63,943 bases of DNA from Chlorobiaceae bacterium (GTDB lineage: Bacteria > Bacteroidota > Chlorobiia > Chlorobiales > Chlorobiaceae). The notes under the pieces were generated by a model. The model did no database searches and was not told where the DNA came from. It saw nothing but the letters and a program-made list of their open reading frames with translations. The position numbers were made by a program, and so were the translations under genes. The DNA lies in the NCBI GenBank assembly GCA_013335405.1, contig JAAXVR010000013.1:1-63943 (forward strand), in the 5' to 3' direction. Below are positions 41,311 through 61,400 of the stretch, piece after piece (positions within the stretch are counted from its first letter, which is position 1; every line of letters begins with the position of its first letter).

Positions 41311-44300
41311 ATGAACGATAGCGAATTTCGTGATTTTCACCGGAACAGCAATTCATCCAAGGTGGCAGCAATGAACCCCGAGGAACGCATGCTTCTCGAA
41401 AAGCGCATCGAGACCTCACGATCACGGACAAGGGAATCGGGCATCCTGCGGTTGCCTCCCCGTCCCGACATCATCCCGCTTTCCTTTGCCCAGCAACGCC
41501 TCTGGTTCATAGAGCAGTGGGAAGGCGCAAACAGCGGCGGTCTCTACAACATCCCCGAAGCATGGTGGCTCGAAGGCCCGCTGGACCGGGAGCGCATGCA
41601 ATATGCATGCAATTGCCTGATTGCAAGACACGAAGCCCTGCGCACCGCTTTCGTCAGCACCGACGGCAAACCGCGCCAGGAAATCAGAAGCGGAATCTCC
41701 GCAGATCTGCCCCTCATCGACCTTCAGCATCTCCCCGTATCAGAAGCCCGCGAACGGGCACTTGCCGAAGCCGCAGCACTGGCAGGCGAAGGCTTCGATC
41801 TCACCCAACCACCGCTTCTGCGCACTGCGCTCTATCGCATCGACAACTCCCTCCACCTGCTCGTCCTGGTGATCCACCATATCGTCAGCGACGGATGGTC
41901 CATGGGAGTGATCGACCGCGAACTCGGCATGTTCTATGACGCAAGGGAAAACGAACTGCCGCCGATGCCTATGCAGTATGCCGATTATACCCTCTGGCAG
42001 CGCGAACAGCTGCAGGGGGCTGTGCTCGAAAAACAGCTTGCCTACTGGCGTCGGCAGCTTGATGGCCTGATCCCTCTCGAACTGCCCCTTGACCGTCCCC
42101 GGCCGGTGGTCCAGAGCTACCGGGGAAGTCGATACCCCCTGAAACTCTCACCGGAACTCACCGCCGCACTCAGACTGATCTGCAGGCAGGAACAGGTTAC
42201 CCTCTATATGCTGCTGCTGGCAGCCTTCCAGGTTCTGCTGGCAAGGCACAGCGGCCAGATGGATATCGCTGTCGGAAGTCCTCTTGCCGGCCGTGACCGC
42301 TTTGAACTCGAAGGGCTTATCGGCTTCTTCGTGAACACCCTCGTGATCCGTACCGATCTGAGCGGCAACCCCTCTTTCCGGGAACTGCTTCAAAGGGTCA
42401 GGGAAACCGTGCTCGATGCCCATGCCCATCAGCTCATCCCCTTCGAAAAAATTGTCGAGGAGCTGAACCCGATTCGCGACCAGGGAAGGAATACCTTTTT
42501 CGACATCATGGTCAATATGTTCGAAGAGATAGAGAGCCCTCCGGCTTTTAACAATCTCAGCTGCATCCGGGAGTACCTTGATCATCACTGGTCGAAGTAT
42601 CCGATGACGATCTATGCCAGCGAAGTAAACGGTCGCATAATCCTTGAACTTGCTTATCAGAACGCATGCTTTTCCAGCCGTTTTATCCTTGAACTGATGC
42701 AACAGTTCCTGCAACTCCTGGAACAGATCGCCATAGACCCGAAGAAAAATGTCTACTGCTATTCACTCGTTACACACCAGGCAGCAGCATTCCTGCCGGA
42801 CCCATCATTACCGATCGAGGTCCCTCTGCAACAATCGGTCATCACCATTTTCAATGACTTTGCCCGGCGCTCTCCGGAAGCACTCGCGGTAACCCATGGA
42901 CACCGAAACTGGAATTATCAATGCCTTGCCGAGGCGGCAGGCCGTGTTTCATCGGCTCTTGGCAAGTACGACCTTTGCAAGGCTGATGTTGTTGCCATCA
43001 TCGGGGCTTCCAGTTTCGGACTTGTCAGCTGCCTGTTAGGGATCCTGATGAGAAAAATGGTTTTTCTGACCATCGATCCGGCCTTGCCGGCATCCCGTCA
43101 GGCAACCATGCTGAGAGAAGCCGGAACAAAAGCGATTTTACGGATTGGAACTGCACCATTCCCTCCTGAATGGGCATCAGGTTCAGCATCCGTTCCGGTT
43201 ATCGATATCGATCCTCACCTGGGTATAATCGTCACAGAAAGCGGGGAAAACCATGAAAGTGCCTTATCAGAAAAATATATCCATGGAAATGATCCGGCAT
43301 TTGTCTTTTACACCTCCGGCAGTACAGGCATACCGAAAGCAGTGCTGGGAACCCACCGGGGACTCTCCCATTTTCTGGCGTGGCAGAGGAACACGTTCAA
43401 CATTACGGAAAGCGACCGTATTGCTCAGTTTACAAGCCTCTCTTTCGATGCCGTGCTGAGGGACTTCTTTCTGCCGCTGACGAGCGGAGCTGCACTATGC
43501 ATTCCTGAAGAGAATGATCTGGCGGATCCGCTTTACTGGGCAGACCGAGAAAAAGTCACCGTTATTCATTGCGTACCCTCGCTTCTGCACAACTGGCTCA
43601 GTCAAACAGAGCTCTCATCCGGCATGCATGCGCTCCGGCTGCTTTGTTTTACTGGTGAACAACTGACTGTCGCACTGGTGCGGAAATGGAGGAAGCGCTT
43701 TGCCGGGAACACCGTAATAGTCAATTTCTACGGTCCGACAGAAATTACACTGATAAAATGCTTTTTTCTTATTCCCGGTGAACTTCCGGAAGGGATCCTT
43801 CCTGTAGGTACGTCATTACCCCAAACTCAGGCTCTGGTGCTGAACGAAGCCGGACAGCTCTGCGGAGTCGGGGAAAAGGGAGAAGTAGTACTGCGCACGC
43901 CATTCCGATCCCTCGGCTATATCAACGCTCCTCTGGAGATGCAGGTTCGCTTCCGCACAAACCCTTTCAGTGAAATGAACTGCCGGGACGATGATATGCT
44001 TTATTTTACAGGCGACCTGGGAAAGTACAGACTCGACGGCACGCTCGAACTTGCCGGAAGACTCGACGACCAGATAAAAATCCGCGGTGTCCGAATCGAG
44101 CCTGGCGAAGTTAAAGCGGTCATCGAAGAACATCCTGCAGTCAGTGCCTGTTTTGTACAGGGACGGAAAAAAGGGACCGGTGAAATATTCCTTGCCGCAT
44201 ATGTCGTTTTCAAAAGCAAGGAAAAGCTCGAAACGGACCCCTTGCGTTCTTTCCTCTGCGCTCGCCTTCCTGCCGTCATGATTCCCTCTTCATGGACTGT

Positions 44301-44646
44301 CCTTGAAAACCTCCCCCTGCTCCCGAACGGAAAGGTCGACAGGCAATCGCTTCCGGAACCGGAAATCCTGAACGAAAACGAGTACCTGCCCGCTCGCACT
44401 CCGCTGGAAACTATAATCGCAGAAATCTGGATGGAACAGCTTCGTGTGCCACGGGCCGGAGTCAATGATAATTTTTTTAACCTCGGAGGGCATTCACTGC
44501 TCGCTGTTCAGGTCCTGAACAAACTAAACAGACAACTCGACATCCAGCTGACATTACAGGATTTATTTAAAAATCCTACGCTTGGTGGACTCGCATGCAG
44601 AGTATTTGATATCCTTGTTTCAGAAGATACAAAAGAAGGGTATTGA
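41311..44646 (+). CDS. Nonribosomal peptide synthetase 1, one module C-A-PCP
   Basis: This 1,111-residue single-module NRPS has a condensation domain (IPLSFAQQRLWFIEQW, active site HHIVSDGWS at residues 189-197) with LCL character. The adenylation domain has VFYTSGSTGIPKAVLGTHRG, NFYGPTEIT, FTGDLGKYRLDG and RLDDQIKIRGVRIEPGEV, and NGKVDRQSL with the catalytic Lys. A carrier domain has NLGGHSLLAVQ, with the pantetheine Ser near 1062. By alignment to GrsA numbering the specificity residues read D-A-R-H-C-T-F-L-I-K, which I cannot assign. No epimerase or release domain. The first ATG is 41311; an inner ATG at 41371 has AAGGTGG 5 nt upstream. Its first 1,151 bp of repeat match synthetase 2. Confidence 0.95.
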   Translation: MNDSEFRDFHRNSNSSKVAAMNPEERMLLEKRIETSRSRTRESGILRLPPRPDIIPLSFAQQRLWFIEQWEGANSGGLYNIPEAWWLEGPLDRERMQYACNCLIARHEALRTAFVSTDGKPRQEIRSGISADLPLIDLQHLPVSEARERALAEAAALAGEGFDLTQPPLLRTALYRIDNSLHLLVLVIHHIVSDGWSMGVIDRELGMFYDARENELPPMPMQYADYTLWQREQLQGAVLEKQLAYWRRQLDGLIPLELPLDRPRPVVQSYRGSRYPLKLSPELTAALRLICRQEQVTLYMLLLAAFQVLLARHSGQMDIAVGSPLAGRDRFELEGLIGFFVNTLVIRTDLSGNPSFRELLQRVRETVLDAHAHQLIPFEKIVEELNPIRDQGRNTFFDIMVNMFEEIESPPAFNNLSCIREYLDHHWSKYPMTIYASEVNGRIILELAYQNACFSSRFILELMQQFLQLLEQIAIDPKKNVYCYSLVTHQAAAFLPDPSLPIEVPLQQSVITIFNDFARRSPEALAVTHGHRNWNYQCLAEAAGRVSSALGKYDLCKADVVAIIGASSFGLVSCLLGILMRKMVFLTIDPALPASRQATMLREAGTKAILRIGTAPFPPEWASGSASVPVIDIDPHLGIIVTESGENHESALSEKYIHGNDPAFVFYTSGSTGIPKAVLGTHRGLSHFLAWQRNTFNITESDRIAQFTSLSFDAVLRDFFLPLTSGAALCIPEENDLADPLYWADREKVTVIHCVPSLLHNWLSQTELSSGMHALRLLCFTGEQLTVALVRKWRKRFAGNTVIVNFYGPTEITLIKCFFLIPGELPEGILPVGTSLPQTQALVLNEAGQLCGVGEKGEVVLRTPFRSLGYINAPLEMQVRFRTNPFSEMNCRDDDMLYFTGDLGKYRLDGTLELAGRLDDQIKIRGVRIEPGEVKAVIEEHPAVSACFVQGRKKGTGEIFLAAYVVFKSKEKLETDPLRSFLCARLPAVMIPSSWTVLENLPLLPNGKVDRQSLPEPEILNENEYLPARTPLETIIAEIWMEQLRVPRAGVNDNFFNLGGHSLLAVQVLNKLNRQLDIQLTLQDLFKNPTLGGLACRVFDILVSEDTKEGY
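41334..42484 (+). repeat. Direct repeat copy 1 (NRPS start region and condensation N-lobe)
   Basis: These 1,151 bp recur at 44856-46006 (offset 3,522) with no difference found on reading both copies. Flanks diverge at once on each side (A versus C at the left edge; G versus T at the right). It includes an in-frame ATG with a ribosome site and ends right after the sequence NPIRDQ. Confidence 0.92.
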
Positions 44647-44671
44647 CGAGATAATATTAAACGGGATTCAG

Positions 44672-44697
44672 GCTTTATGCTGCCCCATCCATAAAGC
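44672..44697. other. Inverted repeat between NRPS genes 1 and 2
   Basis: GCTTTATG (44672-44679) pairs with CATAAAGC (44690-44697) across 10 nt. There is no T-run directly after it; a seven-T run starts about 17 nt later. It may be a weak terminator or a processing hairpin in the 186-bp spacer. Confidence 0.35.
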
Positions 44698-44832
44698 ATC
44701 AGGAATCATGGGCTTTTTTTCAAAATAAAACAAAATTCCAGTCGTGTTGGCAATTCCGTCATGAACAACAACTCTGAAACTGAATCGGACCCCGGTAGCG
44801 GATAGCTGTCACACAGTTCAACCGCCTGAAAT

Positions 44833-47800
44833 ATGAATGAACATAATCAACACCCTTTTCACCGGAACAGCAATTCATCCAAGGTGGCAGCAATGAACCC
44901 CGAGGAACGCATGCTTCTCGAAAAGCGCATCGAGACCTCACGATCACGGACAAGGGAATCGGGCATCCTGCGGTTGCCTCCCCGTCCCGACATCATCCCG
45001 CTTTCCTTTGCCCAGCAACGCCTCTGGTTCATAGAGCAGTGGGAAGGCGCAAACAGCGGCGGTCTCTACAACATCCCCGAAGCATGGTGGCTCGAAGGCC
45101 CGCTGGACCGGGAGCGCATGCAATATGCATGCAATTGCCTGATTGCAAGACACGAAGCCCTGCGCACCGCTTTCGTCAGCACCGACGGCAAACCGCGCCA
45201 GGAAATCAGAAGCGGAATCTCCGCAGATCTGCCCCTCATCGACCTTCAGCATCTCCCCGTATCAGAAGCCCGCGAACGGGCACTTGCCGAAGCCGCAGCA
45301 CTGGCAGGCGAAGGCTTCGATCTCACCCAACCACCGCTTCTGCGCACTGCGCTCTATCGCATCGACAACTCCCTCCACCTGCTCGTCCTGGTGATCCACC
45401 ATATCGTCAGCGACGGATGGTCCATGGGAGTGATCGACCGCGAACTCGGCATGTTCTATGACGCAAGGGAAAACGAACTGCCGCCGATGCCTATGCAGTA
45501 TGCCGATTATACCCTCTGGCAGCGCGAACAGCTGCAGGGGGCTGTGCTCGAAAAACAGCTTGCCTACTGGCGTCGGCAGCTTGATGGCCTGATCCCTCTC
45601 GAACTGCCCCTTGACCGTCCCCGGCCGGTGGTCCAGAGCTACCGGGGAAGTCGATACCCCCTGAAACTCTCACCGGAACTCACCGCCGCACTCAGACTGA
45701 TCTGCAGGCAGGAACAGGTTACCCTCTATATGCTGCTGCTGGCAGCCTTCCAGGTTCTGCTGGCAAGGCACAGCGGCCAGATGGATATCGCTGTCGGAAG
45801 TCCTCTTGCCGGCCGTGACCGCTTTGAACTCGAAGGGCTTATCGGCTTCTTCGTGAACACCCTCGTGATCCGTACCGATCTGAGCGGCAACCCCTCTTTC
45901 CGGGAACTGCTTCAAAGGGTCAGGGAAACCGTGCTCGATGCCCATGCCCATCAGCTCATCCCCTTCGAAAAAATTGTCGAGGAGCTGAACCCGATTCGCG
46001 ACCAGGTAAAAAATCCGTTTACCCAGGTATTATTCGGATTGTTGACCCCTCTTGACAACCCTCTATCGCTTACAGGCCTGACAGGAAAAAATCAGCCGAT
46101 AGAAAACGGGACGGCAAAGTTCGATCTCAACCTTTTACTTTTTGAGGAACCTGATGGAGCTGTCCATGGCTCTATCGAGTATCCCTCCGAACTTTTCGAA
46201 ACGTCCACCATCCGGCGTCTGACAAGCCACTTTACGACTCTCCTCGAAGGGTTCGTTTCCGGCAACTTGAATATACCAATATCCCTCCTGCCCATCCTCA
46301 CTGAACAGGAGCGGTATCGGATTCTTGAAGAGTGGAACCGGACCGGAGCTGATTACCCTCGGAACATCTGCTTCCAGCAGCTCTTCGAGGAACAAGCAGT
46401 AAATAATCCTGATGCGATTGCCATTATTGAAGGCAGTATCAGGATATCCTATGGCGAACTGAACACCCGCGCCAACAGGCTGGCTTATCATCTCCGTTCG
46501 CTCGGCGTAGCCCGTGATACCCTGGTCGGCATCTGTATACCGCGATCTGCCGATATGGTAGTTGCCATGCTGGCCGTATTCAAATCGGGCGGCGCTTACG
46601 TACCGATCGATCCTGATTACCCTGCAGATCGTATAACTTTCATGCTTGAAGACAGCCGTGCTCCGGTATTGCTTACACGTCAGAACCTTTTCGAGCTGTT
46701 TCCGGATTACCCCGGTTTGATATTCTGTATGGACCGTGACTGGACGGCAATTTCCGGTATGCCCGATATGAACCCCTGCCTTGCGGGGGGCTCGGAAAAC
46801 CTATGCTATGTTATCTATACTTCCGGTTCGACAGGAAAGCCGAAAGGCGTCATGATCGAGCACCGCTCATTGATTAATTTTGTCTTCTGCCTCCAGAACG
46901 AGTTCAGGCTTTCTGTAAATGAACGTATGCTGCAATCTTCGGCGTCGAGTTTCGACATTTCCATTTTCGAGCTCTGGTGGCCTCTTTCAGCGGGTGCGTC
47001 ACTTGTTCTCATGCCGTTGAACGACCTGCAGTTACCTTCGCGACTCTTCTCATGTGCGCTTGAATACCAGGTAAGCGTCATGATGATTGTCCCGAGCCTG
47101 CTTTCCGTTCTGCTCAATGAAGGCAGTTTCAGCAACCTGCATTCCCTTCGACTGTTTTTCAGCGCAGGCGAGGCGCTCGACCCTCAGCTCGCAAGGCGCT
47201 TCAGGAAACAATCCCAAGCGGAACTTATCAATGCTTACGGACCCACAGAAACCACAGTCGCATCAGCATTCTGGTTATGTCCTTCAGACAATGAGTGTTC
47301 AGTGGTACCGATTGGCAGACCTCTGGCGAATACCCGGCTCTATGTCCTTGACCCACACCTGCAGCCGGTACCGGTTGGTGTTCCCGGCGAACTGTATATC
47401 GGTGGAGAAGGATTGGCCCGCGGTTACTGGCGAAGACCGGAACAGACTTCAGAACGTTTCCTCCAGGATACCTTCATGCCCGAATCCATGAATGCCAGGA
47501 TGTACAGGACCGGTGACCGTGTAAAATATATGGAAGATGGAAATCTGCTGTTCCTGGGCCGTTTCGACAACCAGATCAAATTACGGGGCTTTCGAATCGA
47601 ACTCGGGGAGATAGAAGCGATCCTGCTTGAACAGCCGAATATCCGTCAGGCTGTCATGGCACTTCGGGAAGACAATCCAGGGGATCAGCGACTGGTCGCC
47701 TATGTAGTGGCTGATCGTGAAAAATTCGATATCGCTGCGCTGCGCAGGGCAATGAGAACTCTGTTACCCGAATATATGGTGCCTGCCGCCTTTGTTCTCC

Positions 47801-48138
47801 TTCAGGCTTTGCCATTATTGCCTAACGGCAAGGTTGACCGGACAACATTGCCCAGGCCGATGTATGGAAACAGGGAAAAAGCTTTCCGCGCTCCGTCCAC
47901 ACCTCTCGAGGAAATCATTGCTGATATCTGGCTTGAAGTGCTGCATCTGGATAATGCTGGTATCGACGATAATTTTTTCGATGCAGGCGGTCATTCCCTG
48001 CTTGCCGTGCAGCTCATCAACAGGATAAACCGGGAATTCGATCTTGTCATGACAATACGCAACCTTTTCGAAACACCTACTATCGAAGGATTGGCCCTTA
48101 CTGTTCTTGGATTATTCGCTGCTGAAAATCCTGAATAA
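44833..48138 (+). CDS. Nonribosomal peptide synthetase 2, one module C-A-PCP
   Basis: This 1,101-residue protein has the same domain order as synthetase 1. Residues 9-392 are identical to it. After NPIRDQ the condensation domain changes to VKNPFTQVLFGLLTPLDN, a normal C-lobe. The adenylation domain has YTSGSTGKPKGVMIEH, SFDISIFELWW, NAYGPTETT, RTGDRVKYMEDGN and NGKVDRTTL. The specificity residues read D-I-F-M-F-A-A-V-A-K, not a code I know. The carrier Ser is near 1055 in DAGGHSLLAVQ. No release domain. The start at 44833 mirrors that of synthetase 1 (ATG 23 nt before the repeat); ATG 44893 with AAGGTGG is the alternative. Confidence 0.95.
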   Translation: MNEHNQHPFHRNSNSSKVAAMNPEERMLLEKRIETSRSRTRESGILRLPPRPDIIPLSFAQQRLWFIEQWEGANSGGLYNIPEAWWLEGPLDRERMQYACNCLIARHEALRTAFVSTDGKPRQEIRSGISADLPLIDLQHLPVSEARERALAEAAALAGEGFDLTQPPLLRTALYRIDNSLHLLVLVIHHIVSDGWSMGVIDRELGMFYDARENELPPMPMQYADYTLWQREQLQGAVLEKQLAYWRRQLDGLIPLELPLDRPRPVVQSYRGSRYPLKLSPELTAALRLICRQEQVTLYMLLLAAFQVLLARHSGQMDIAVGSPLAGRDRFELEGLIGFFVNTLVIRTDLSGNPSFRELLQRVRETVLDAHAHQLIPFEKIVEELNPIRDQVKNPFTQVLFGLLTPLDNPLSLTGLTGKNQPIENGTAKFDLNLLLFEEPDGAVHGSIEYPSELFETSTIRRLTSHFTTLLEGFVSGNLNIPISLLPILTEQERYRILEEWNRTGADYPRNICFQQLFEEQAVNNPDAIAIIEGSIRISYGELNTRANRLAYHLRSLGVARDTLVGICIPRSADMVVAMLAVFKSGGAYVPIDPDYPADRITFMLEDSRAPVLLTRQNLFELFPDYPGLIFCMDRDWTAISGMPDMNPCLAGGSENLCYVIYTSGSTGKPKGVMIEHRSLINFVFCLQNEFRLSVNERMLQSSASSFDISIFELWWPLSAGASLVLMPLNDLQLPSRLFSCALEYQVSVMMIVPSLLSVLLNEGSFSNLHSLRLFFSAGEALDPQLARRFRKQSQAELINAYGPTETTVASAFWLCPSDNECSVVPIGRPLANTRLYVLDPHLQPVPVGVPGELYIGGEGLARGYWRRPEQTSERFLQDTFMPESMNARMYRTGDRVKYMEDGNLLFLGRFDNQIKLRGFRIELGEIEAILLEQPNIRQAVMALREDNPGDQRLVAYVVADREKFDIAALRRAMRTLLPEYMVPAAFVLLQALPLLPNGKVDRTTLPRPMYGNREKAFRAPSTPLEEIIADIWLEVLHLDNAGIDDNFFDAGGHSLLAVQLINRINREFDLVMTIRNLFETPTIEGLALTVLGLFAAENPE
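44856..46006 (+). repeat. Direct repeat copy 2 (NRPS start region and condensation N-lobe)
   Basis: This is the second copy of the 1,151-bp repeat at 41334-42484. Synonymous positions are also unchanged, so conservation is at DNA level and not just protein selection. Confidence 0.92.
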
Positions 48139-48202
48139 TAAAACCGCCGAAGAGATCCGTGTTGAAACCAGAATTGAAATTTTCAACAAAGGCCAAAAAT
48201 CC

Positions 48203-51200
48203 ATGTCACCCAACGAAAATCAACTGATTGAAGACCGTATACGGCTGGAGCATACCCTGCTGGAAAAACGCAGGAAAAATTCTGCGTCAAGCACGATTCC
48301 CCGGCGTAACGGTTCAGGGCCATGCGAACCATCGTTTGCCCAGGCACGGCTCTGGATGGTCGAACGTATCATGCCTGTCCCCGGTAACTACAACATTTCG
48401 AGTGTTTTCAGGATTCACGGTACACTCGATTTAGAGGCTCTGCAATCAACGCTGGAAGCAATTATAGAAAGGCACGAAGTTCTGCGGACCCGGCTATCAC
48501 TGCATGGAGGAACACTCATGCAGTCTGTCATGCCGGCTCAGCCATTTGTCATGCACAAAATCGATACAAGAGAAAATCCTGCCATGGTGCGGCAGAAAAT
48601 ACTCGACAATTTTATCGATACGCTCTGCAGAGCCCCTTTCGATCTCTCAAAGGATTGCATGCTGAGGGCTGGACTGGCTATAATCGAAGACAAAGAATTC
48701 ATCTTTGCCATCAGCATCCACCATACTGCAGCTGATGCATGGTCGATGCCTGTGCTCTACCGTGAGATTGCAATCCTCTATGAATCATCAGGAAAAAACC
48801 CGCAGGGAGTTCTTCCTCCGCTTCCTCTTCAGTATGCTGACTATGCCCTCTGGCAGAGAGAGCAGCTGACCGGAAAAAAGCTGAAAGAGCTGCTCCAGTT
48901 CTGGAAAACAAACCTTGATGGATTGACCCCGCTTGACCTTCCGTTCTTACGGCCTCGTCCGGCCACTCCCCTCCACCGAGGAGATATCGAACGTTTCACG
49001 CTTTCCTCCCTGAAGCTTGAGCTGCTCAAATCACTTGCACGAAAACACGGCATCTCGCTCTATGTGCTGCTGCTTGCCGTTTTCCAGCTGCTCCTTTCGC
49101 GTTACAGCGGACAGGATGATATCTCTGTGGGAACCCCTGTAACAGGACGAATCAGAAGCGATCTTGAAGCTCTCATAGGATTTTTCGTCAACACCCTTGT
49201 CATAAGAAGTGATCTTGGAGGAAACCCAAGCCTTCGAACGCTTTTTGAAAGAGTGCGTGATTCAGTGCTGGATGGCTTTAACTGCATGGAACTGCCTTTC
49301 GAACTACTTGTCGAAGAGATGAACCCGAGACGGGACACAAGCCTCAATCCTTTATTCCAGGTGATGTTCACGTATTACACGACGCCCGAACATATTTTCA
49401 GTCTTCCCGGACTGGAGGTCGAGGAAATGCCGTTACCCGTAAAAACGGTAAAATTCGATCTGACTGCATCATTTGCGGAAACCGGCGACGATATGCAGTG
49501 TTCTTTCACATACGATACCGATCTTTTCGAGAGGGGATTTATCAGGCGTATGACAGGCCATTTCAAGACTCTGCTGGATGCAATCCTTGTCCATGACCCT
49601 GAAACACCCGCCAGAATACTTCCCATGCTCACTGGCAATGAACTGGAACTGCTCACCGTTACCTGGAACAGAACAGGCTCGAACTATCCCCGTCACCTCT
49701 GTATCCACCAGCTCTTCGAAGCAGTGGCTGCGCAGGGCCCGAATGAGATCGCCCTCATTTTCGAAGACATGAACCTTTCTTACGGTGAACTGAATGCGAG
49801 AGCAAACCGGCTCGCCCGGCACCTGAATGCACTCGGAGCAACTCCGGGTTCCCCTGTAGGAATAAGCCTGCCCCGCTCTATCGATATGGTGACAGGAATT
49901 CTTGCCATTCTCAAAACAGGAGGAACCTATGTTCCCCTCGACCCTGAACTTCCGCCCTCACGGCTTGCGTTCATGCTCGAAGACACAGGTGCAGCATTCG
50001 TCATTACCAGGCATGCAGAGCAAAAGAAATTTGATGCAGCACAGGTGCGGATGATCTGCATCGATACCGACAAGCCGGAAATCAGCAACGCTCCCGCCGG
50101 AAATTTTTCTTCTGAAAGTGCCGACCCTGAAGCTTCCGCCTACATCATGTATACATCGGGATCCACCGGTCAGCCCAAAGGGGTTGCCATATCGCACCGC
50201 AATATCGCCCGGCTTGTTTTCGGTACGGACTATATCAGCTTCGGCAAAGATCAGACCTTCCTTCTGCTTGCCCCGCCTTTTTTCGATGCATCGACTTTTG
50301 AACTGTGGGGAGCTTTGCTTCATGGTGCCCGATGCATTATCTATCCCGGCAGGGTGCCTGCTGCCGAAGATCTGGAAAACGTTATCAACCGTTATGGTGT
50401 AAACACCCTTTGGCTGACTTCAGCGCTCTTCAATACGGTCATCGACCAGAAACCTCAAGCCCTGCGGGGTTTACGGCAATTGATAACCGGTGGAGAAGCG
50501 TTATCGGCAACCCACGTACGGCGAGCCCTCGACACATTGCCTGACACCATGCTTGTCAACGGATACGGTCCCACCGAAAGCACAACCTTTGCATGCTGCT
50601 ACAGAATTCCCCGGTCGTTTCCGCCACAAAGTCCTTCAGTCCCTATAGGACGGCCCATTGCCAACACCAGGGTTTATGTTCTCGATCCCTCTCTGCAGCC
50701 GGTACCGATTGGCGTGCCCGGTGAATTGTATATCGGAGGGGACGGGCTGGCGGCAGGATACCTGCATCTCGAGGAACTGACCAGAGAGCGTTTCCTGCCC
50801 GATCCGTTCAATCCCGCCGAAAATGCACGGATCTACCGGACAGGCGACCGTGTAAGATATCTGTCTGACGGGAACATTGAGTTTCTCGGTCGCCTGGATA
50901 ATCAGATCAAACTGCGCGGTTACCGTATCGAACTCGAAGAAATAGAGGCGCATCTCCTGAAACAGTCTGAGGTAAAACAGGCCGTTGTGGTCATGCGTGA
51001 AGACAGCCCAGGACAGCCGCAGCTTGTGGCTTATGCGGTAACGGAAAGAAAAGACCTTGATGCAGGCAGACTGCATGACGCGCTTAAAAAAGATCTTCCG
51101 GTGTACATGCTTCCATCGGCCTATGTGCTGCTCGAATCTTTGCCGTTGACACAGAACGGCAAACTGGATCGAAAATCGCTGCCAGCTCCCGAGGATGCAT

Positions 51201-52198
51201 CAGGTAACAATGGAAGCCCCCTGAAACCAAGAAATCCAATCGAACAACAATTGTTCGATATCTGGAAGCTTCTGCTGAACAGAAGCTCTTTCGGCGTACG
51301 TGACAATTTCTTCGATGCGGGGGGGCATTCGCTGCTCGCTGTTCAGATGATCGACCAGATCGAAAAAATATTCAACTGCAGAATTCCCCTCGACACGCTC
51401 TGGCTCTCATCTGGAACCATAGAATCGCTTGCAGAAGTCCTGAACGGGCAATACCGCTTCTGTATCAATCCTGAGCTTGTAGAGATGAAAAAAGGATCAG
51501 GCCTCCCCCTGTTCCTTGTCCATGTCATCGGCGGTCACCTTCTCGATTACTTTGATCTTGTCCGCTCTCTCGATCCCGATCAATCCGTCTATGGCCTGCA
51601 GGCACGTGGTGTGTTCGGAGCCGGGAGACCCGACAGGAACATGAAGGTGATAGCCGCCCGCTGCATCGAAGCAATGAAAATCGCCCAGCCACAAGGGCCA
51701 TACCTGATTGCCGGGTTCTCCAGCGGAGGAGTAATCGCCTACGAAATGACGCAGCAGCTCCGACGCCAGGGTGAAAGGATCGCTCTGCTGGCAATGATTG
51801 ACACGAATTATCCATGGGCTTACCGGACAACCGTCCTGAAAAAAGCATTAAGGGATCTTTCGCAGGGACATACGTCTCTTATCAGGAACCTGCTCTACTC
51901 GGTTTTTTTCAGGCTGTTCAGGCTTGAACATCTTCCTGTCTTTCCTATCCGTGGAGCTCACAGAATGGCGAATATGAATTATCGCCCTAACCATTCGTCT
52001 CAGCCGGTCTGTTTCTTCATTGCACAAGATCCTTCTGATCCCGCAAAGCATGACCTCCTTGGCTGGGAAAACACCATCAGAGGTCCATTGCAGGTATACC
52101 ACATCTCAACGTATCACCATCTCATCCTCAAGCCTCCCGCTGTTGCCGAGGTTGCGGAAAAACTGAATCAATGCATTGAAATGGCCTCTAATCCATAA
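48203..52198 (+). CDS. Nonribosomal peptide synthetase 3, valine module with thioesterase (C-A-PCP-TE)
   Basis: This 1,331-residue terminal module has a condensation domain with HHTAADAWS (residues 173-181; the usual Gly after Asp is Ala) and a C-lobe not shared with the other modules. The adenylation domain has YTSGSTGQPKGVAISH, FFDASTFELWG, NGYGPTEST and NGKLDRKSL; its specificity residues read D-A-F-W-I-G-G-T-F-K, the standard valine code. The carrier Ser is near 1043. The type I thioesterase has GFSSGG (Ser near 1173) and a late His in YHHLIL (near 1305) and would release or cyclise the peptide. ATG 48203 has AAAGG about 10 nt upstream; the longer TTG frame (48107) overlaps synthetase 2. 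Confidence 0.95.
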   Translation: MSPNENQLIEDRIRLEHTLLEKRRKNSASSTIPRRNGSGPCEPSFAQARLWMVERIMPVPGNYNISSVFRIHGTLDLEALQSTLEAIIERHEVLRTRLSLHGGTLMQSVMPAQPFVMHKIDTRENPAMVRQKILDNFIDTLCRAPFDLSKDCMLRAGLAIIEDKEFIFAISIHHTAADAWSMPVLYREIAILYESSGKNPQGVLPPLPLQYADYALWQREQLTGKKLKELLQFWKTNLDGLTPLDLPFLRPRPATPLHRGDIERFTLSSLKLELLKSLARKHGISLYVLLLAVFQLLLSRYSGQDDISVGTPVTGRIRSDLEALIGFFVNTLVIRSDLGGNPSLRTLFERVRDSVLDGFNCMELPFELLVEEMNPRRDTSLNPLFQVMFTYYTTPEHIFSLPGLEVEEMPLPVKTVKFDLTASFAETGDDMQCSFTYDTDLFERGFIRRMTGHFKTLLDAILVHDPETPARILPMLTGNELELLTVTWNRTGSNYPRHLCIHQLFEAVAAQGPNEIALIFEDMNLSYGELNARANRLARHLNALGATPGSPVGISLPRSIDMVTGILAILKTGGTYVPLDPELPPSRLAFMLEDTGAAFVITRHAEQKKFDAAQVRMICIDTDKPEISNAPAGNFSSESADPEASAYIMYTSGSTGQPKGVAISHRNIARLVFGTDYISFGKDQTFLLLAPPFFDASTFELWGALLHGARCIIYPGRVPAAEDLENVINRYGVNTLWLTSALFNTVIDQKPQALRGLRQLITGGEALSATHVRRALDTLPDTMLVNGYGPTESTTFACCYRIPRSFPPQSPSVPIGRPIANTRVYVLDPSLQPVPIGVPGELYIGGDGLAAGYLHLEELTRERFLPDPFNPAENARIYRTGDRVRYLSDGNIEFLGRLDNQIKLRGYRIELEEIEAHLLKQSEVKQAVVVMREDSPGQPQLVAYAVTERKDLDAGRLHDALKKDLPVYMLPSAYVLLESLPLTQNGKLDRKSLPAPEDASGNNGSPLKPRNPIEQQLFDIWKLLLNRSSFGVRDNFFDAGGHSLLAVQMIDQIEKIFNCRIPLDTLWLSSGTIESLAEVLNGQYRFCINPELVEMKKGSGLPLFLVHVIGGHLLDYFDLVRSLDPDQSVYGLQARGVFGAGRPDRNMKVIAARCIEAMKIAQPQGPYLIAGFSSGGVIAYEMTQQLRRQGERIALLAMIDTNYPWAYRTTVLKKALRDLSQGHTSLIRNLLYSVFFRLFRLEHLPVFPIRGAHRMANMNYRPNHSSQPVCFFIAQDPSDPAKHDLLGWENTIRGPLQVYHISTYHHLILKPPAVAEVAEKLNQCIEMASNP

Positions 52199-52214
52199 CG
52201 TTTATCCGTACTAT

Positions 52215-52931
52215 ATGATGCATTTTCCATCGATCGAGTGCGGTGAAACCCATGTATGGACAATCGATCTCAGCAAATTCGCACTGAAAGGTATAGATCA
52301 TGAAACCCTGCTCTCCGGTGACGAAATCGTCCGGGCAAACCGTTTCAGGATCCCGGAGTTACGGAACAGGTTCGTCAATTCACGGGCAGCACTGCGGCTT
52401 TTACTGGCCGATTACCTTAACAGCGATGCCCGTGCCTTCCGATTTACATACGGGCGGTATGGGAAACCCAGTCTTCCTGGAACACCAGAACTGAGGTTCA
52501 ATCTTTCCCATGCCGATAAGATGATGATGGCAGCTTTCGCACTGCATCGGGAAGTCGGGATCGATATCGTTCGGAAGGTTGATCCGGCAGACAAGGAAGG
52601 GATTGCCCGGATAGTTTTTTCCGCAACTGAACAGATTGCTTTTTCAGCAGTACCGGTTCAGGGACGGAGTGAAGCTTTTTTGAGTATATGGACACGAAAG
52701 GAAGCATATATCAAGGCAACAGGAGGAAGTATCGCCCTGCATGCAGGTTCTTTTTCCGTTTCGGTACACCCCTATGAAGGAAAAGGAGAAGTTATCGGCA
52801 ATGGGCCGGACAAAATACGTCTGTGTGACATCGATGCCCCGATTGGCTTTTTCGCATCACTTGCCGCTTCCGGTACCAATTGGACTGTTATGGCTTTCAC
52901 GAACGGTGAGAAGCTTATCCGCGATCGGTAA
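52215..52931 (+). CDS. Sfp-type 4'-phosphopantetheinyl transferase
   Basis: This 238-residue enzyme transfers phosphopantetheine from CoA to carrier-domain serines. The motifs are ELRFNLSHADKMMMAAF, the magnesium site EVGIDIVRK, and FLSIWTRKEAYIKATGG (WxxKEAxxK). It has the two-lobe size of Sfp, not the small AcpS. It starts 16 bp after synthetase 3 and is probably translated from the same mRNA, activating all three modules. ATG 52215 is chosen over a TTG inside the synthetase gene; ATG 52218 follows directly. Confidence 0.93.
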   Translation: MMHFPSIECGETHVWTIDLSKFALKGIDHETLLSGDEIVRANRFRIPELRNRFVNSRAALRLLLADYLNSDARAFRFTYGRYGKPSLPGTPELRFNLSHADKMMMAAFALHREVGIDIVRKVDPADKEGIARIVFSATEQIAFSAVPVQGRSEAFLSIWTRKEAYIKATGGSIALHAGSFSVSVHPYEGKGEVIGNGPDKIRLCDIDAPIGFFASLAASGTNWTVMAFTNGEKLIRDR

Positions 52932-59999: not shown

Positions 60000-61400
60000 A
60001 TGGCTCATCCCATCATCAATGACACAATTACCGGGGCTCATGCCGAAAAGCAGAAAAACGATAATCCGGAAACACGACACTCTATAGGGAACATCGATCC
60101 AAACAAGCCATTGCAAACCAGGATCTTTGCCTGGCACGACCTGGGAATGGCCTGGGCAGGAAACACCATCAACACCGCCATCTTTCGGCACCACGGTGTC
60201 CTTACGTTTGAAGACAGACAAACCAGCGCTTTTTATGTTGATGCAACAACGCTGCGCATCGTTCAGCGGAATCTGGAAACAGAAACAATCATAACAGCTG
60301 ATCTGGCTGGCAGGTACAATCTTTCGGATTCACATAACTGCATCAATCTGGGTGTAGACCGGGAAGGCTTTCTTCACATGAGTTATGACCTCCATGCATC
60401 CCGACTGCGATACCGCCGTAGCAAATGTCCAAACGACATATCCGCATGGACAGATGATCTCCCAATGACAGGGTTCGCCGAGGATAAAGTTACATATCCA
60501 ACATTCATCCTGCCGCATCATGGTTTTCCACTGACTCTGCTCTACCGTGATGGTGTCCATGACAAAGGAACTGCACGGATGAAAACCTATAACGAAAGCA
60601 CCCGAACCTGGCTGGACCACACCAGCCCAATCCTGAGTGGCGCAGAACAAAAGCCATGGACAAGCAATGCGTACTGGAACAGTCCCGCCATTGGATCCGA
60701 TGGCTCCCTGCATCTCTCATTTGTCTGGAGAACTCATTCGATAGGAAGGAAAGCTCTTGTCAACAATATGAACATCTGCTATGCGCGCTCTTTCAACAAT
60801 GGCGTGGACTGGGAAACCTCACGTGGAATTCCCTTTCAGTTACCCATTACACAGGTGAATGCGGAAGTTATCCATCCGGTTTCTCCAGGCAGCAATCTCA
60901 TGAATCAGTGCAGTATGGCCCTGAACAGCCGAAACTGGCCACATATCGTTTACTATGCCGACTGGCATGACGGTATTCCGCAGTATCAACATGTATGGTA
61001 TGACGGAAACTGCTGGAATAATGAAAAGTTCTCGGCAAGAACCGAACCTTTTGCGCTGCAAGGATTCGGAACGTTGAAAATACCCATCAGTCGCCCCGAA
61101 ATCCTGATTGATAACAGGGATCGGGTGTATGCATTATTCCGTGCTGATGTTACAGACCAATGCATGACTGTATGCCGACTTTCTGATAGTAACTTTTCTG
61201 CTGACCCGAAAGATAAAGCTTATATCCACAAAATCACGGAAAAGGCTTTTGGTTTTGCAGAACCGGTTATCGATCGCGGCCGCTGGCAGAAGGAAAACAT
61301 TCTCACCATCCTGTTGCAGTATAATCAGCAACCAAATGGCGATCATATCAAAGACATAGCTTTTGAACCGGTATACCTGACAGATGTGCTTCTGGAATGA
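60000..61400 (+). CDS. BNR-4 repeat-containing protein (sialidase/lyase-like propeller)
   Basis: This 466-residue protein has the BNR-4 pattern: DSHNCINLGVDREGFLHMSY, TYPTFILPHHGFPLTLLYRD, YWNSPAIGSDGSLHLSFVWR, a Ser/Arg-rich Asp-box-like stretch (ARSFNNGVDW) and RPEILIDNRDRVYALFRADV. Proteins of this family fold as seven-bladed propellers and include polysaccharide-active enzymes of marine bacteria. No signal peptide is seen at the N-terminus (MAHPIINDTITGA), so it may act in the cytoplasm or its true start may differ. It stands isolated in an accessory-looking stretch. Confidence 0.8.
   Translation: MAHPIINDTITGAHAEKQKNDNPETRHSIGNIDPNKPLQTRIFAWHDLGMAWAGNTINTAIFRHHGVLTFEDRQTSAFYVDATTLRIVQRNLETETIITADLAGRYNLSDSHNCINLGVDREGFLHMSYDLHASRLRYRRSKCPNDISAWTDDLPMTGFAEDKVTYPTFILPHHGFPLTLLYRDGVHDKGTARMKTYNESTRTWLDHTSPILSGAEQKPWTSNAYWNSPAIGSDGSLHLSFVWRTHSIGRKALVNNMNICYARSFNNGVDWETSRGIPFQLPITQVNAEVIHPVSPGSNLMNQCSMALNSRNWPHIVYYADWHDGIPQYQHVWYDGNCWNNEKFSARTEPFALQGFGTLKIPISRPEILIDNRDRVYALFRADVTDQCMTVCRLSDSNFSADPKDKAYIHKITEKAFGFAEPVIDRGRWQKENILTILLQYNQQPNGDHIKDIAFEPVYLTDVLLE

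Follow-up and report, generated by a model that had tools for sequence, protein, structure and literature searches.

A 1,151-bp condensation-domain repeat in two adjacent NRPS genes of a green sulfur bacterium, probably copied between modules by recombination

Near-identical domains within a single NRPS pathway have been described before. The C domains of modules Pa8 and Pa11 in the pyoverdine synthetase of Pseudomonas aeruginosa are nearly identical (Calcott et al. 2020, PMC7486941), and concerted evolution of NRPS and PKS domains is known for daptomycin, A54145, CDA, and syringopeptin (Medema et al. 2014, PMC4256081). In most published exchanges, the part replaced is the core of the A domain (Baunach et al. 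2021, PMC8097286) or the A domain, the C domain being left in place (Fewer et al. 2007, PMC2174460). Two papers (PMC9205934, PMC8097286) cite engineered exchange units whose junction falls within the C domain (Bozhueyuek et al. 2019). Natural exchange of NRPS module parts guides the choice of sites at which these enzymes are cut and joined in the laboratory. Our full-text literature search indicated that green sulfur bacteria have been little studied for NRPS pathways. Here, we analyze a direct repeat, R, shared by two adjacent NRPS genes of a Chlorobiaceae genome that carries the FMO antenna protein of green sulfur bacteria. The window, by which we mean the whole stretch of DNA analyzed, comprises 63,943 nucleotides without any N.

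All genes of the locus lie on the forward strand. ORF1 (41311..44646) and ORF2 (44833..48138) are called as open reading frames, and each encodes a single C-A-T module that matches the Pfam models Condensation, AMP-binding, and PP-binding. The spacer between the ORF1 stop codon and the ORF2 ATG (44647..44832) has no match to the sequence upstream of ORF1. ORF3 (48203..52198, with a probable start at 48203 in a frame that is open from 48107) encodes C-A-T-thioesterase according to Pfam, and a gene for a 4'-phosphopantetheinyl transferase (52176..52931, Pfam ACPS) adjoins the NRPS genes. The genome has three condensation domains in all, one in each of ORF1, ORF2, and ORF3. An orthologous cluster was absent from 65 genomes of the genus, where the best other match was 32% over the module, and from 394 genomes of the phylum sample. 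The cluster (41311-52198, three one-module synthetases with the phosphopantetheinyl transferase) was likely acquired horizontally. NRPS-like genes of other kinds are present in 18 other genomes of the genus. Read by motif, the A-domain pocket of ORF3 (48203-52198) is DAFWIGGTFK, a code for valine; this reading is a lead only. The pockets of the ORF1 and ORF2 A domains look unlike standard codes.

The two copies of R occupy positions 41334-42484 and 44856-46006, both on the forward strand. The preliminary description of this DNA had reported a 1,151-bp repeat with no visible difference in the first two synthetase genes, stopping sharply at both ends, and had proposed a base-by-base alignment of the copies. 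Our base-by-base comparison bears out these observations: 1151 of 1151 bases are the same, and the adjoining base differs at either end. Among the 50 bases outside R, 16 match on the left and 23 on the right; the left flanks are unrelated, and the right flanks are homologous but diverged. Taken at face value, 0 differences in 1151 bases place a 95% upper bound of approximately 0.26% on divergence. All repeated 60-mers in the window fall at a single offset, 3522, and besides R no 25-mer occurs twice in the window in either orientation, which rules out chance as the source of R. Across the whole assembly (2.47 Mb, 62 contigs), R occurs in these two places only. The next-best match (69% over approximately 150 nt) lies in ORF3; at 41% protein identity, the C domain of ORF3 does not represent a further copy of R. 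We considered and rejected an insertion sequence or other mobile repeat: the window contains no inverted 25-mers, R has no third copy, and a transposase search of the genome, which covered the DDE_Tnp_1 family only, returned no DDE_Tnp_1.

Both copies of R are read in the same frame, and an in-frame ATG lies 23 nt upstream of each. Within R, a probable Shine-Dalgarno sequence, AAGGTGG, stands 5 nt before a further ATG at 41371 in ORF1 and 44893 in ORF2 (41357..41373 for the motif and start codon in the first copy). The N-terminus read from this ATG, MNPEERMLLEKRI, resembles the start of ORF3 at 48203, MSPNENQLIEDRI. On this sequence evidence, the internal ATG is more likely to be the true start of ORF1 and ORF2 than the ATG 23 nt before R. 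Read from the internal ATG, R consists of a 37-nt leader with a putative ribosome-binding site and the first 371 codons, that is, the N-terminus and the C domain as far as C7. Alignment with solved C domains shows that R ends at NPIRDQ, where the C7 motif begins, approximately 110 residues short of the end of the C domain. The active-site motif HHIVSDG lies within R, and the composite C domains of ORF1 and ORF2 match the Pfam model over its full length (352 and 334 bits, respectively). The best solved relatives of the R C domain are Txo2, Txo1, 5u89, and TycC. Given the HHxxxDG motif, the full-length fold, and nearest solved relatives that are elongation C domains, both are predicted to be active LCL-type C domains. 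ORF1 is the first module, yet it carries the same elongation-type C segment (R coding part 41371-42483) as the second, and the genome has no NRPS module upstream of it.

Beyond R, the two modules are clearly different. The remainder of ORF1 (42485..44646) and the remainder of ORF2 (46007..48138) each comprise the C-domain tail (the last approximately 110 residues), the A domain, and the T domain. The A domains are 32% identical and the T domains 51%, and the two C-domain tails gave no alignment at E 1e-3. The A domains of ORF2 and ORF3 share 47% identity, closer than either is to that of ORF1. By these identities, the ORF1 and ORF2 modules beyond R are old paralogues. Because the modules have diverged beyond R, their relationship is not one of plain gene duplication; in a tandem duplication of the gene or of the whole module, similarity would extend over C, A, and T. 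Of the two origins offered in the preliminary description, a very recent duplication or ongoing gene conversion between neighbouring modules, the simple duplication thus falls away, and recombinational copying fits best, with the composition and the ORF1 trees presented below in its favor. Substitution of an A core, which has its breakpoints within the A domain and keeps the C domain whole, was also rejected; the breakpoint here lies at C7 instead. Gene conversion is expected to leave a tract that stops abruptly while the modules are diverged beyond it, and R shows both features.

A short-read assembly artefact had been mentioned in the preliminary description as a further possibility, and the contig ends justify it in part. 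Exactly 127 nt of overlap joins 21 pairs of contig ends as dovetails, and 4 more pairs share a terminal 127-mer (25 pairs in total), which indicates a short-read de Bruijn assembly with k=127. At 1,151 nt, R has nine times the length of this overlap. A two-copy repeat with one loop is written out by such an assembler from one graph segment, here as flank-R-ORF1-R-ORF2. With R as a single graph segment, scattered differences between the copies could vanish, and neither the number of R-ORF1 units nor the phase across R is fixed. The perfect identity of the copies, and hence the label "very recent," may therefore be partly the assembler's sharpening, and we do not regard it as proven. Every 128-mer of a de Bruijn contig comes from reads, however, so the four junctions of R are probably real, and the statement that R is near-identical and present in two genes is solid. 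We consider it quite unlikely that one sequence, or merely similar sequences, were collapsed and written twice by the assembler. The loss of small differences from a shared graph segment would suit that reading, but with four read-derived junctions R must occur twice, unless ORF1 is carried on an excised circle. Moreover, both crossings are in frame and meet at the same conserved motif, and the composition of R is unlike that of both neighbours, an outcome that misjoining of sequence native to the two modules would not produce.

Several other features of the assembly were observed. An overlap of exactly 127 nt links positions 1-127 of the window to the end of contig C42, the probable neighbour. 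A BNR_4 repeat-containing protein is encoded near the contig end (window 60000-61400, E 7e-55). Contigs C12, C51, and C52 (1.5-2.2 kb) read as N in every piece taken and may be masked ribosomal RNA contigs, which would explain why the 16S search found no match; that negative therefore carries no information on the assembly. At the end of contig C61 (L232:1019-1278), at least 149 nt of identical sequence recur directly at a spacing of 111 nt and form a short tandem array.

The base composition of R forms an island in both genes. R has a GC content of 0.591 and a GC3 of 0.681, compared to 0.488-0.545 and 0.504-0.574, respectively, for every 1149-nt window in ORF3 and in the portions of ORF1 and ORF2 outside R. 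The GC3 excess corresponds to z = 5.9 with amino-acid content allowed for. It is high in six of six sub-blocks of R, and all 600-nt blocks outside have |z| <= 1.63. The steps in composition coincide with the repeat ends. At fourfold degenerate sites, C has a frequency of 0.456 in R and of 0.276-0.288 across the other NRPS parts (ORF1 and ORF2 outside R, and ORF3); for nine other genes in the window it is 0.365. The difference in composition between R and the downstream part in both genes is direct evidence of a history separate from that of both modules, and because R differs also from the remainder of ORF2, it is not simply native to ORF2. This result and the ORF1 trees below extend the preliminary description.

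This island weighs on two further explanations. In the first, an old tandem duplication of the whole C-A-T gene was followed by replacement of one copy's part downstream of C7, that is, an A-domain swap whose left border would be unusual. In NRPS evolution, replacing the A domain while retaining the C domain is the common mode (PMC8097286, PMC2174460, PMC7486941). Each gene has its ATG equally far upstream of R, and in ORF1 the C tail together with the A domain gives contiguous matches to the same loci. The swap does not account for a composition of R that differs from the ORF2 remainder and not just from that of ORF1; in addition, published A swaps break in the A domain or the C-A linker rather than before C7, and the spacers upstream of R retain no similarity. 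We therefore regard this explanation as unlikely, albeit with a modest chance of being correct. In the second, an old shared C segment has been kept identical by repeated conversion over a long time, with GC-biased conversion raising the GC content of the tract. We give this very little weight and consider it highly improbable. Concerted evolution of NRPS domains has been described (PMC4256081), and the edges of the GC rise fall exactly at the repeat ends, but one imported segment with a different codon usage accounts for these data too. At fourfold sites, moreover, the excess is mainly in C and not in G, which strand-symmetric GC-biased conversion would not favor.

The relatives of ORF1 change at the 3' end of R, as shown by discordant trees of R and of the A domain. 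In the C tree, which is a quick version with several long branches poorly placed, the R protein groups with the C domain of a Rhodocyclaceae MAG (locus L005; 55% identity, support 98). The C segments of three cyanobacterial loci (L038, L077, and L079, from Brasilonema and two Nostoc) form their own clade apart from R (support 100), and that of Dictyobacter (L036) is also placed outside the group of R. In the A-domain tree, ORF1 clusters with precisely these four (support 100), and the ORF1 C tail has matches at E 1e-10 to the same four only, so that by sequence comparison the kin of the ORF1 remainder are a small cyanobacterial and Dictyobacter group. We thus rejected the idea that R is native to ORF1, given that the C segments of its A-domain relatives form a different clade. 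The ORF2 A domain has no clear neighbour in the tree, and the same test is therefore silent for ORF2. Nor does R similarity track tail similarity in ORF1: the correlation is 0.07 for ORF1, 0.25 for ORF2, and 0.27 for ORF3, a weak measure because the loci were picked by R similarity.

No donor of R closer than 55% protein identity was found in the genus, the phylum sample, the GTDB contigs, or plasmids; within the phylum sample, the best relative reached at most 43%. The copies are 100% alike as against 55% protein identity to the best outside relative, a disparity expected of gene conversion. The thioesterase that follows the Rhodocyclaceae module (L005:10001-13909) is the nearest to that of ORF3 (44%). 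The presence at one locus of both the C domain nearest R and the thioesterase nearest that of ORF3 is a hint that the two may come from a shared source lineage. Stretches that are near-identical between NRPS modules are not rare: pairs of at least 300 nt at 90% or more occur in 13 of 96 sampled relative loci, the best of them at 99.3% over 584 nt and 99.0% over 2.9 kb; many of these loci are drafts, so exact repeats may be under-reported.

Overall, we favor, with moderate confidence, the account in which homologous recombination or gene conversion copied R, a C-domain segment of other origin, between the modules. This segment would have come to head one module and would then have been copied over the front of the neighbouring module. 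The copied tract would begin shortly before the ribosome-binding site and stop at the conserved C7 motif, and each module would have retained its own C-domain tail, A domain, and T domain. Identity, sharp ends, shared frame, divergence outside the tract, a composition island in both genes, and the discordance of the ORF1 trees are all observed and all speak for copying. We infer, rather than observe, the direction of copying, its enzymology (RecA-type recombination or conversion), its recency, and the foreignness of R to ORF2 as well as ORF1. With no close relative carrying the cluster, the state before copying and the direction are not visible. The left border of R is the weakest point of a purely homologous account: because there is no homology at that border now, homologous conversion would need either homology that has since been lost or non-homologous joining.

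We also computed the products of a crossover between the two copies of R, which are predictions and not observations. Such a crossover would delete or duplicate 3522 bp, a multiple of three, and leave the genes intact. The deletion product is a gene identical to ORF2 after residue 8, and the reciprocal duplication yields one further intact ORF1-type gene. Because crossovers leave intact genes, the number of modules could change in one step. The copies of R might on this basis act as recombination handles of a variable assembly line, in a population with zero, one, or several ORF1 modules and peptides of varying length, but we consider this very unlikely.

Comparison with the described systems places R close to several of them. 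Like Pa8 and Pa11, the R pair consists of near-identical C domains in one pathway, except for stretches that include the C-terminal part, and different A domains follow. The Pa8 and Pa11 C domains differ in three stretches, whereas in R 371 codons and the 37-nt leader are identical; unlike Pa8 and Pa11, the R pair lies in two adjacent one-module genes and in a different phylum. As in the daptomycin, A54145, CDA, and syringopeptin cases, homologous domains within the cluster are closer to each other than to any outside relative; unlike those cases, R involves two of three modules and the front of the C domain only, in a tract with its own composition. Substitutions of the A core or the A domain resemble R in that they reflect recombination between modules and leave C and A domains with different histories. 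In R, by contrast, the border lies inside the C domain at C7, and the A domain is accompanied by the C tail and the C-A linker, which is the less usual feature here. Engineered exchange units are reportedly joined at the linker between the two C subdomains; they share with R a junction inside the C domain, which is kept whole. The natural junction at C7 lies further downstream than the engineered one. At C7, apparently recently, the same front has been joined in frame to two unrelated C tails and A domains, and if both genes are active, C7 marks a tolerated fusion point. R is thus a fresh case of the known concerted evolution and recombination of NRPS domains.
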